This document shows, piece after piece, positions 8,268-27,228 of a stretch of DNA of 35,139 bases. The stretch is from positions 1-35,139 of the forward strand of contig NZ_JXYS01000091.1 of assembly GCF_000949295.1 (NCBI RefSeq), written 5' to 3'. Each line of letters begins with the position of its first letter. The first letter of the stretch is position 1. Made by a program: the position numbers and the translations under genes. The notes beneath the pieces were generated by a model. It was not told the DNA's origin. It made no database searches and saw only the letters and a list, made by a program, of their open reading frames with translations. The DNA comes from Acidithrix ferrooxidans. GTDB taxonomy: Bacteria; Actinomycetota; Acidimicrobiia; Acidimicrobiales; Acidimicrobiaceae.

Positions 8268-9812
8268 TTAAAAATTCTGACTGTGCCTAATCGGAATTCG
8301 GACGATAAAAGTGGCGCCGATCCCTGGCTCAAGTGAAATTTCTCCTAGATGAGCGGTCACTATCGACTGGGCAATCGCCAAACCAAGGCCGGCTCCACCA
8401 CTATGTCGCTGGCGAGAGCGGTCGCCTCTGACAAAGGGCTGGAAAATAGTATCGGCTAAATCCTTATCGATACCAGGACCGTCATCGTGAACAACTATAA
8501 AGGCGTCAGAGCCTTCGAGTGCAAGGTCAAGCGAAATCGCCACATGGCTCGGAGTGTGCTTTGTGGCATTTACTAAAAGAATATCAATGACCTGCCGAAG
8601 GCGAAAATTGTCTCCTTGAAGGAGCAACTCTTTTGCCCCCTCCAGAGTAATCGTTCGATTCGGATTGGTAACTCTAAGTGCTGCCACTGCCTCATAAGCG
8701 ATGGTACTCAGGTTGCAGGTGGTAATCTCAAGTGGCCGCACTTGGTCGAATTGCGCCAGAGAAAATAGATCATCCACTAAATTTTTCATTCGATTCGCGT
8801 CTTCTCTAATGTGGCGAAACGCTATATCTAGGTCGTATCTATCGTCCTTCTTCCAAAGTTCAAAGAGGTCAGAGTAACCAAGTATCGAAGAAAGAGGAGT
8901 CCCTAGTTCGTGGGAGGCATCTGCCAAAAAGCGGCGCAACTTTCCCTCGGACTCCGCAACTTCTCCAAAGGCCCCTTCAATCTCGGCAACCATAGCATTG
9001 AATGACCTAGCAAGTTGAACCACCTCGTCTTTAGCATTGCTGCCAACTTCGGGGACACGTCGACCAAGGTCCCCTTGGGCGATCTCCTTAGCCGCATTCG
9101 CAACCTCAACAAGTGGCCTAAGATCCCGCCTCAATATGAACCAAGCTATGGCGCCCAAAGCAACCAGAAGGGCAAGAGATACACCCACCTCTACCAATAA
9201 AAGACGATGTAGAGTTCCCAGGGTCACCGCCATCGGCACGCCAATAATAACAACCCCGACTCCGTTGGCCAACCGCGCAACAAGTGCCGAATAAGGTGCC
9301 GCCCCAGAGCCTGTACTTGTAATTGAGAAATACTTAGTTGGATTAGGTCCCACCATCGCCGAGAGCGCGATCTTTTCTATGGATGGAAACGATGGCGTAT
9401 CTTGTCCATAGCCATAAAACAGTCGCGACAAGACCTTTCCCTGCGGGCTCAGGAGCTCGCCAAATGTACCCTGTGGAATAAGCACTCGTCGCCCCCCAGG
9501 TGCTGGAGGCACATTTGGAGACGACTGGTTTGGAGAAAACAATGTTCCGGCTGCATTGCCTGAAGCAACCCCTACGAGAGGTCCGCGCCCCCCGGGAGCC
9601 CCGCCTAAACGAGATAAAGGCCGCCCAGGCAGAGTAACTCCTGCTATCGATGCGAGAGAACGCGTAATTGGAAATGATGCCGAATCGAGCTGATGGCTTA
9701 CACCCTGATCCAAAAATGAACTTATGGACTTATAGGTTACAAAATCGGCAATTGAAAAACCAAGAAGGACCACCGCCACTATCAAAGCTATTAATCGAGT
9801 CCGAAGAGTCAT
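8268..9812 (-). CDS. Two-component sensor histidine kinase
   Basis: Membrane sensor kinase, 514 aa. Transmembrane segment 1 is at about 7-25. A Gly/Pro/Ser-rich extracytoplasmic sensor domain spans about 26-203 and transmembrane segment 2 about 204-227. HAMP covers about 228-282. HisKA has the H-box ADASHELGTPLSSILGY (phosphorylated H301). HATPase_c has the N box around N415 in LLVNATKHTP, the G1 box DDGPGI (443-448) and the G2 box GGAGLGLAI (472-480). The H-box reads HELGTPL where HELRTPL is usual. The gene begins 4 bp inside the upstream response regulator gene (ATGA overlap), so the pair is translationally coupled. The signal sensed cannot be told from sequence. Confidence 0.95.
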   Translation of the reverse strand: MTLRTRLIALIVAVVLLGFSIADFVTYKSISSFLDQGVSHQLDSASFPITRSLASIAGVTLPGRPLSRLGGAPGGRGPLVGVASGNAAGTLFSPNQSSPNVPPAPGGRRVLIPQGTFGELLSPQGKVLSRLFYGYGQDTPSFPSIEKIALSAMVGPNPTKYFSITSTGSGAAPYSALVARLANGVGVVIIGVPMAVTLGTLHRLLLVEVGVSLALLVALGAIAWFILRRDLRPLVEVANAAKEIAQGDLGRRVPEVGSNAKDEVVQLARSFNAMVAEIEGAFGEVAESEGKLRRFLADASHELGTPLSSILGYSDLFELWKKDDRYDLDIAFRHIREDANRMKNLVDDLFSLAQFDQVRPLEITTCNLSTIAYEAVAALRVTNPNRTITLEGAKELLLQGDNFRLRQVIDILLVNATKHTPSHVAISLDLALEGSDAFIVVHDDGPGIDKDLADTIFQPFVRGDRSRQRHSGGAGLGLAIAQSIVTAHLGEISLEPGIGATFIVRIPIRHSQNF

Positions 9813-10585
9813 GAGGTGCTTTCAGAGGCGCCATTCGAATCATTCACCGGCGCCCTCAAACTATAGCCAATGCCTCGCACCGTTCGAATCATCGAAGGTC
9901 CCAATGCATCGATCTTCTTACGTAAATAACTTATGTAAACAGCTATCTGGTTAAAGACGTCATCTTGAGAATGTTCCCAGACTCGATCACGAATTTGAGA
10001 ACGAGTAACCACTTGACCGGCATTGATCATCAAAAACCGAAGGAGCTTAAATTCAGTAGGGGTGAGATCTAGCAAGACCCCCCGCCTGCGAGCTTCTTGT
10101 GTATCGGTATCTAAAATCAAATCACCGACACTGACGCTCGAGCCATCCGGACCGTCGCCAACTGTTCGCCGTAAAATGCCCTGCACCCTAAGGGTAAGTT
10201 CCTCGACGCTAAAGGGCTTCACGACGTAATCTGTCGCACCTGATTTGAGGCCAGAAATTCGATCGTCAAGGCCACGCCGTGCAGTTAGCAAAAGAACAGG
10301 AATTGATGCACTTCGCCATGACTCAGACATACGGCGCATCACCTCGTAACCATCCATATCCGGAAGCATCACGTCTAAAACGACCAGATGAGGATAGAAA
10401 GATTCGACCATCGACAGAGCCTCTTTACCGGATTTGGCACCTCGTGTAGTCATGCCCAAAAGCGAAAGAGCCATCGTGACTAGATCGACTATGCTCGCTT
10501 CGTCATCAACGACTAATACGCGTCGCTCCTTGTCGCCACCCACAGTAAAAACCTCGCAACTTGCCAAAGCAACCGAAGTCGCCAC
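9809..10585 (-). CDS. OmpR/PhoB-family response regulator
   Basis: Cytoplasmic DNA-binding partner of the overlapping kinase. The receiver domain (about 20-135) has the acidic pair D27/D28 in VLVVDDEAS, phospho-acceptor D71 in VVLDVMLPDMDGYE, T101 in LLLTAR and K123 in DYVVKPF. The C-terminal winged-helix trans_reg_C domain (about 150-245) has LTPTEFKLLRFL, VWEHSQ and IRTVRGIGYSLR. The first 20 residues are not family-typical. A GTG at 10585 is used here; a later GTG in front of GGDKERRVLVVDD is also possible. The promoter must lie in the 10586-10700 gap, divergent from a DUF805 remnant. Confidence 0.95.
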   Translation of the reverse strand: MATSVALASCEVFTVGGDKERRVLVVDDEASIVDLVTMALSLLGMTTRGAKSGKEALSMVESFYPHLVVLDVMLPDMDGYEVMRRMSESWRSASIPVLLLTARRGLDDRISGLKSGATDYVVKPFSVEELTLRVQGILRRTVGDGPDGSSVSVGDLILDTDTQEARRRGVLLDLTPTEFKLLRFLMINAGQVVTRSQIRDRVWEHSQDDVFNQIAVYISYLRKKIDALGPSMIRTVRGIGYSLRAPVNDSNGASESTS

Positions 10586-10678: not shown

Positions 10679-10909
10679 TCCCTACAGCTCTTTGTAGTGG
10701 CATCGATTATTCCAAGCTTCTCAATGGCAATACGCAGGCTCCATGATATTGACCGTTCTGGATACACGGCTCTGATTGGCCTCATACCACTTCTCGGCCC
10801 AATCATACTGTTCATCTTTACCGTTCTTCCAGGAACAGCTGCTCCAAATCGTTTTGGAGGTTGTGCTCCAAATCGTTTTGGAGCACAACCTCCAAAACTC
10901 TCCAATTGA
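10679..10909 (+). pseudogene. N-terminally truncated DUF805 membrane protein remnant
   Basis: The frame after a TGA at 10676-10678 encodes the C-terminal half of a DUF805 (YhaH-like) inner-membrane protein: SMAIRRLHDIDRSGY, matching the family block RRLHDxGRSG, then one hydrophobic segment (LIGLIPLLGPIILFIFTVLPG) and the family end motif PNRFG. Family members are about 110-130 aa with further transmembrane helices before this. Here the N-terminal part is missing and no trace of it lies upstream, where the response regulator gene starts. A GTG at 10697 could start a 70-aa product. The end motif is duplicated (APNRFGGCAPNRFG) by the palindromic repeat at 10841-10897. Probably non-functional. 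Confidence 0.65.
10841..10897. repeat. Two 19-bp palindromic direct repeats forming a 21-bp-stem hairpin
   Basis: A 19-bp unit beginning GCTCCAAATCG occurs at 10841-10859 and 10865-10883, period 24 bp. Each copy is itself near-palindromic (CTCCAAA tcg TTTTGGAG). The arms at 10852-10872 and 10877-10897 are perfect reverse complements of 21 bp around a TCGT loop. It lies inside the 3' end of the DUF805 remnant and adds a second copy of its PNRFG codons. The size and perfection suggest a REP/BIME-like or small mobile palindrome rather than an ordinary terminator; no T tract follows on either strand. Confidence 0.85.
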
Positions 10910-10959
10910 AATCAACTCCATTAAGGTCAGCGCGCAAAATGACATGGCTACAAATCAAG

Positions 10960-11007
10960 CTGGCCCGTTACCTCAAGAATCTCCTTGAGACAACAGGCCA
11001 GTAACGG
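10960..11007. promoter_or_regulatory. Compound stem structure downstream of sucD
   Basis: Three complementary pairs are packed together: CTGGCC (10960-10965) with GGCCAG (10996-11001), CCGTTAC (10965-10971) with GTAACGG (11001-11007), and CTCAAG (10972-10977) with CTTGAG (10984-10989). The first two cross, so they are either mutually exclusive or a pseudoknot. It lies about 95 bp past the sucD stop on the minus strand and may serve as its transcript end, though no clear T tract is present. Confidence 0.5.
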
Positions 11008-11102: not shown

Positions 11103-11987
11103 CTAGAAGGCCCGAACTATCTCGACCATCTTTTCACCGGCAGCAGTTGGATTTACGGCGACGACTACCCCCGCAGCCGTTAACGCCTCCATCTTGGCCG
11201 CTGCTGTTCCTTGCGAGCCTGAAATAATAGCTCCCGCATGGCCCATCTTCTTCCCCGGCGGAGCGGTCTGACCAGCAATATACGCTACGACTGGCTTAGA
11301 AAAGTGCTCTTTAATAAAAGCTGCAGCCTTCTCCTCCTCAGTCCCACCGATCTCCCCGATCATCAAGACAGCCTTAGTCTCTGGGTCGGCTTCAAAGGCA
11401 GCCAAGCAGTCTATGAAGTTCGTACCCGGTACGGGATCGCCCCCAATACCCACGCATGTCGTCTGGCCGATGCCTTGTTGGGATAGTTCGTGAATCGCCT
11501 GATACGTCAAAGTTCCAGATCGTGAGACAATCCCCACGGGCCCCCCAGCTAAGGCAATGGAACCAGATGTAATTCCAATATTGCACTTTCCTGGAGAGAT
11601 AATTCCCGGACAGTTTGGTCCAATCAATCGGGTCCCTGGGTAATCTCGGACAAGGACGTTATAGAAAAACGCCTCATCTTTTGCTGGTATGAATTCGGTA
11701 ATACAAACAACCAGAGCGATTCCGGCCTTTGCGGCCTCCAAAACTGCCCCACCAGCAAAACGTGGCGGTACCGAGATGAAGCTGGCGTTGGCATTTGTAA
11801 GCGCCACCGCCTCTTCGACGGTATCAAAGACTGGAATGCCATCGACGTCCGTGCCCCCCTTACCAGGGGTAACACCGCCTACAACTTTTGTACCATAGTC
11901 ACGGTTTCTAAGGCCATGGAATCTACCTTGGCCCCCAGTCAATCCTTGGACGATGACACGGGTATTTTCATCAACAAAGATACTCAA
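11103..11987 (-). CDS. sucD: Succinate-CoA ligase (ADP-forming) alpha subunit
   Basis: With SucC, converts succinyl-CoA, ADP and phosphate to succinate, CoA and ATP in the TCA cycle. The N-terminal CoA-binding Rossmann domain has [10 protein letters not shown] (15-24) and [17 protein letters not shown]. The catalytic phosphohistidine is H250 in [12 protein letters not shown], supported by E212 in [10 protein letters not shown]. The 294-aa length is normal. The start is a TTG that follows the sucC TAG directly (TAGTTG), with GGGAG just upstream inside sucC, so the two are cotranscribed and coupled. Confidence 0.96.
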
Positions 11988-24093: not shown

Positions 24094-24142
24094 AAAAATA
24101 TAAATCACCTGCATCTCGTAGATGAGACGCAGGTGATTTATA
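24094..24142 (-). terminator. Rho-independent terminator of guaB3
   Basis: A 19-bp stem with one mismatch (arms 24099-24117 and 24124-24142, TATAAATCACCTGC at the base) and a GTAGAT loop. On the minus strand it is followed by TTTTTGTC. It lies about 190 bp past the guaB3 stop; the stretch 24143-24334 between them holds no gene. Confidence 0.88.
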
Positions 24143-26816: not shown

Positions 26817-27137
26817 TTACACATCACCTATCCTGCCCCATAAGGTTCAATCAAACGATCAGGACCCCAGGGTCAGGCAAGATCATTTGGCTCTCCATCC
26901 GATAACACATTATTCCACAACACATTTTCTGACGTTCTGTTTCGTCAATGTGGACTTTGAGCCTTATACCTATCTCACAATAGCCATAAATACTTCAATT
27001 TGTGGACCTTTACTATTAGAAAAACTAATGGTTACCAAACAAAGGCCGACGTTCATTCCAGACATAGAGGACGGTCGTCCTTTTAGAGTTCCCTCGTGAT
27101 CACGATCTACATAAACAAAGCAGAACCCAATTAAATA
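26817..27137. other. Gap upstream of the NUDIX gene
   Basis: No gene is seen. A long plus-strand frame (26548-27099) runs antisense through the NUDIX gene into this gap and is judged a shadow. The NUDIX promoter should be here. Confidence 0.5.
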
Positions 27138-27175
27138 AGATTTGGGCCAAGCGATTACTCACTTGGCCCAAATCT
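27138..27175 (-). terminator. Rho-independent terminator of groESL
   Basis: A perfect 14-bp stem (AGATTTGGGCCAAG at 27138-27151 with CTTGGCCCAAATCT at 27162-27175) and 10-nt loop, followed on the minus strand by TATTTAATT. It lies about 55 bp past the groEL stop. Confidence 0.85.
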
Positions 27176-27228
27176 CAAACAATTTGAAGATTTTATCTCT
27201 AATTAATAGAGATTGATAACCTTCAAAA

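Follow-up and report, generated by a model that had tools for sequence, protein, structure and literature searches.

The window analyzed here, the whole stretch of 35,139 nucleotides of DNA of the acidophile Acidithrix ferrooxidans, has a G+C content of 48.2% and belongs to a draft genome of 4,019,867 bases in 183 contigs. The published draft of A. ferrooxidans Py-F3 is described with 4.02 Mb, 183 contigs, 47.8% G+C and assembly coverages of 18.4-fold and 203-fold (PMC4417699). On the minus strand, the window contains a gene encoding an OmpR/PhoB-type response regulator (9809-10585) and sucD, which encodes the alpha subunit of succinate-CoA ligase (11103-11987). Between them, a plus-strand ORF extends from stop to stop at 10679-10909, with a possible GTG start at 10697 (10697-10909), and encodes the C-terminal half of a DUF805 domain. 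The response regulator is transcribed divergently and its 5' end bounds this truncated remnant, and sucD is convergent to it. In agreement with the original prediction of a DUF805 remnant, the GTG-started ORF matches the Pfam DUF805 profile (PF05656) at positions 57-110 of 111 (E 1.4e-16). A six-frame profile search matched positions 50-110 of 111, and the remnant is the sole PF05656 match of the genome at E ≤0.001 in this search. The alignment of two intact relatives to the remnant begins only at 10688, and with these two as reference the N-terminal half of DUF805 was not found upstream; the remnant looks like a pseudogene, a gene in decay.

A terminator-like hairpin of 19 pairs with a T-rich tail is found on the minus strand at 10960-11001, about 100 nt past the end of sucD; it is separate from the repeats described below and is probably the sucCD terminator. 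No tRNA and no Rfam match at gathering scores were found in the window, and a search for plasmid relatives of 10820-10920 gave no match. Two other inverted repeats of the window are located at 27129-27184 (26-nt arms, 81% complementary) and 24099-24142 (19-nt arms, 95% complementary).

The 3' end of the DUF805 ORF shows two identical direct repeats of 20 nt, TGCTCCAAATCGTTTTGGAG, at 10840-10859 and 10864-10883, with a start-to-start distance of 24 nt. The first copy encodes APNRFG at the position where the compared relatives have the conserved DUF805 end motif, and the second copy encodes a second APNRFG. The 24-nt period preserves the reading frame, so that the translation ends in GTAAPNRFGGCAPNRFGAQPPKLSN followed by the stop codon, and 20 of the 24 nt are identical between copies, which differ at the last 4 nt of the period. 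Within each copy there is a palindrome of 7 bp (CTCCAAA-TCGT-TTTGGAG), and the second copy together with the next two bases (10884-10885) forms a 9-bp hairpin with a 4-nt loop. Furthermore, a perfect hairpin is found at 10851-10898, with a 22-bp stem (arms 10851-10872 and 10877-10898) and the loop TCGT. The palindromic nature of the copies, the perfect stem around TCGT and the in-frame addition of a second PNRFG had all been predicted and were recovered; the predicted lengths, 19 nt for the direct repeats and 21 bp for the stem, are corrected here to 20 nt and 22 bp. The structure is known from the assembled sequence alone, and it may conceivably be a misassembly.

RNA folding of the hairpin stretch gave a z-score of -9.1, with none of 200 shuffled sequences equally stable, and DNA folding gave -9.6 for the plus strand and -9.2 for the minus strand (0 of 200 shuffles on each); the fold is far beyond chance. 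A scan for perfect hairpins (stem ≥12, loop 3-12) in the window and in 397 kb sampled from the genome found four in the window, of which 10851-10898 has the longest stem, and 13 in the sample; in five of these 13 the stem is 18 bp or longer, with a maximum of 24 bp. Other sites of the genome thus have long perfect hairpins too. The five sampled hairpins, with stems of 18-24 bp and loops of 3-4 nt, are L114:14028-14078, L119:338-383, L126:18116-18155, L115:10852-10891 and L113:14712-14750; a T-rich, terminator-like 3' arm is shown only by that of L114. A 12-mer repeated within 40 nt is present at 10851-10898 and in none of the five, so the nested direct repeats set the site apart from them.

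Part of the palindrome is explained by its coding content. All 256 possible codings of PNRFG form at least four of the five hairpin pairs, and 64 of them form all five; with Y in place of F, three or four pairs form. Much of the self-complementarity of each copy follows from the P-N-R-F-G codons.

To place the second motif in context, 84 related DUF805 loci were compared: 29 from relatives, used out of 30 listed matches outside the window's own, and 55 from named genomes. In this set, which is not a random sample as the 55 further loci were found by peptide patterns that include parts of the end motif of the remnant itself, exactly one N-x-[FYW]-G was found in 75 of the 84 loci, two in none, and no count was obtained in nine. 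By reading, three of these nine look wrong-frame or cut (L024, L100 and L101) and the other six show no regular motif (L038, L082, L083, L086, L097 and L104). The motif is followed by 4-12 residues in the relatives (27 of 29 measurable), and in the window by 16 residues after the first motif and eight after the second. The first repeat copy keeps the conserved distance from the upstream GT. The tail past the second copy resembles, by eye, that of the same-genus locus L017, whose end GTPTANRFGTPPLQLTA lines up with GTAAPNRFG plus AQPPKLSN.

With one motif in 75 of 84 loci and two in none, it is most likely that the window gained 24 nt. The net insertion can be placed on the plus strand at 10860-10883 or, equivalently, at any 24-nt window starting at 10840-10860. 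Among 11 other genomes of the genus, all of which have sucD, whole or partial, neither the orthologous site nor a shorter single-motif allele was found, with the downstream flank covered in 10 of the 11; the 3' side of sucD is cut off by the contig in G003 and in one of the two G005 loci. No DUF805 or response regulator match (E ≤0.01) was detected beside sucD in the 12 same-genus loci examined, and the best DUF805 match within the genus shares only about 50% identity. For these two reasons we infer the ancestral shorter form, and likewise the direction of change and a single-step history, while the architecture itself is directly observed.

We think, with a probability of roughly 0.8, that the site is a footprint left by one template switch during replication, which took place at a small hairpin within the 3' end of the decaying DUF805 gene. 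The event would start during minus-strand synthesis on a single-motif form that lacked the additional 24 nt. The 3' end of the nascent strand, TTTGGAGCA, would fold back onto TGCTCCAAA, forming 9 bp with a 4-nt loop; this putative snap-back primer is the minus-strand hairpin formed by the second repeat copy and 10884-10885, and it would be largely pre-existing for coding reasons, since every coding of PNRFG forms at least four of the five pairs. The polymerase would then use its own strand as template for 13 nt, which would correspond on the minus strand to 10851-10863, the reverse complement of 10886-10898. Finally, the new 3' end CTCCAAAAC would be released and realign on the same 9 nt of the proper template further back, where synthesis would restart. 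The product would be longer by 24 nt, with two 20-nt direct repeats and a perfect 22-bp stem, and the frame would be kept because 24 is a multiple of 3. One minus-strand snap-back accounts for all the bases, and no function need be assumed for such a footprint. Most likely, then, DUF805 is here a broken membrane-protein gene with eight codons added near its end by a copying accident.

A search for intramolecular snap-back events (loops of 3-8, primers of at least 4 bp, both strands) gave 150 solutions on the minus strand and none on the plus strand. The best one has a primer of 9 bp, a loop of 4, an extension of 13 and a realignment of 9, and the 150 solutions are forms of the same event because they share one hairpin centre. 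On the presumed shorter form, the added bases match the reverse complement of neighboring sequence (inverted copies reach 22 nt), and both a priming inverted repeat (the 9-bp hairpin) and a return homology (the 9-nt realignment) are found. Formal template-switch solutions also exist when 20-23 nt are removed instead of 24; by reading, these break the motif and the frame, so the 24-nt form was preferred. A single event with two template switches also leads from the shorter form to the sequence, the inverted copy being 22 nt long at most, and four of the 256 possible fillers at the 4-nt GTTG position permit a two-switch solution with an inverted copy of at least 12 nt. The product is likewise obtained if two switches occur intermolecularly on the other strand.

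Plain tandem duplication was rejected, as no solution was found. Tandem duplications of 20-28 nt fail to reproduce the sequence, none yields it when starting from the 24-nt shorter form, and no exact tandem repeats of 10-40 nt are found within 10780-10960, because the copies differ in their last 4 nt. These 4 nt, GTTG (10860-10863), lie inside the 13-nt stretch that would be self-copied, and plain duplication cannot supply them. The slippage at a hairpin that the original prediction offered as one of its two explanations was therefore close; since no exact tandem duplication reproduces the sequence, a snap-back template switch is a better reading than plain slippage.

The 20 of 24 nt shared by the copies would also agree with a two-step origin, in which a plain 24-nt tandem duplication by slippage was followed by a quasipalindrome correction of the 4 nt to GTTG through a second template switch. 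This yields the same product as a single snap-back, and correction is what classically happens to imperfect inverted repeats in Escherichia coli (PMC7202029); however, it requires two events where one suffices, and we consider it unlikely.

A good deal less probable is a selected RNA hairpin, acting as a terminator or as a stabilizer of the mRNA end and serving either the plus-strand ORF or transcripts that read through from sucCD. Intrinsic terminators consist of a G+C-rich stem followed by a T-run. The fold at 10851-10898 is very stable, it lies where the DUF805 ORF and sucCD converge, and the genome has other long perfect hairpins (the five of at least 18 bp in 397 kb); however, neither strand has a T-run after the 22-bp stem, and the separate 19-pair terminator-like hairpin at 10960-11001 lies between this stem and sucD. 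A terminator scan reports only the sub-hairpin 10853-10872, and what serves as its T-rich tail is where the other arm begins. Direct repeats, moreover, are not expected in a terminator, and none of the five sampled long hairpins has them. On sequence grounds, a terminator role for 10851-10898 has no positive support.

The other explanation offered by the original prediction was an in-frame palindromic element of the REP/RPE type spreading within coding sequence. In this case, a mobile palindrome would have been inserted in frame and moved by a tyrosine transposase. ORF-internal palindromic inserts are known in Rickettsia and other genomes, and REP/RPE elements share with the present repeat that they are short palindromes able to sit within ORFs (PMC3733652). 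The window repeat differs from the elements described there in being a single site without a tag tetranucleotide and without a dispersed family. Neither a GTAG nor a CGTC tag is present on either strand of 10840-10898 or of 10830-10910. A search of the genome for the unit with up to three mismatches found nine places, four of which are the two local copies on both strands; one of the other five has two mismatches and four have three, and a reversed-pattern control gave three matches. BLAST of a 311-bp region against the genome returned matches of the region to itself and to its own reverse complement and, beyond these, a single stretch of 32 nt. The latter, on contig C106, was rejected as a second DUF805, as its frames show no domain and tblastn gave no support. 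A dispersed repeat family was likewise rejected: the unit occurs in the 4.02-Mb draft only as the two local copies at its own site, the uniqueness that had been named in advance as speaking against spreading. The repeat, furthermore, duplicates the conserved motif of its own host gene.

The search for a RAYT-type transposase, which had been proposed as a further check, gave 23 Y1_Tnp match rows in the genome (L044-L053 and others); some are pieces of one gene, and several are fragmented or have stops. The comparison with transposase models covered the two best proteins of these 23 rows: both match the IS200/IS605 model and score about 26 bits in the REP-associated model, far below its cut-off of 80 bits. 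As a side observation, Y1-type transposase matches are many in this 4.0-Mb genome, and the 11 same-genus relatives are listed at 1.9-2.8 Mb with 65-95% completeness. Since the searches of the draft genome returned no further copy, they lend no support to a spreading REP/RPE element; the site shows no sign of a mobile element, and this is the least credible of the explanations, with a chance close to negligible.

The fold-back template switch that we prefer fits a known mutation process, either quasipalindrome template switching or a miniature inverted triplication. Quasipalindrome template switching as described in E. coli (PMC7202029) includes the same fold-back of the nascent strand, self-templated extension, return and a more perfect palindrome; here, the return point would lie further back, giving 24 additional nt instead of a short arm correction, and the finished footprint alone is seen. 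Template switching is also described as giving rise to hairpins in RNA genes (PMC8794818). There, too, a single event inserts a reverse complement and creates a new long perfect stem, but the genes concerned encode RNAs and their ancestors have been reconstructed, whereas the gene here encodes a protein, is decaying and lacks a close ancestor. In yeast genes, template switching is reported to lie behind multi-base changes (PMC8604942). Small inverted triplications (DUP/IN/DUP) share the forward-inverted-forward order, the junction microhomology and the fold-back model, and on the inferred shorter form this order is found together with junction microhomology. Their size is very different: those reported have medians of 148/160/148 bp, in yeast and cancer genomes (PMC13334657), while in this bacterial genome the parts are of about 20 nt each, with a 24-nt gain and an inverted copy of at most 22 nt.

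If read correctly, the site would be a clean, naturally occurring case of fold-back template switching in an actinobacterium, in which the primer hairpin, the extension and the return homology can all be read from the sequence. It would indicate that an in-frame palindromic repeat resembling a mobile element may have a local origin, and that codon constraint can provide much of the primer hairpin. Apart from this, it is an isolated mutation in an apparent pseudogene. A wider idea, which we regard as speculative and improbable, concerns motifs at gene ends, P-N-x-F-G being one, whose codons are to a large extent self-complementary whichever synonymous codons are used. Such motifs would act as built-in mutation hotspots, at which template switching adds a second, in-frame copy of the motif and may convert coding sequence into strong 3' hairpins. 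If true, such hotspot motifs would be a route to C-terminal repeats or to new terminators in bacterial genes.
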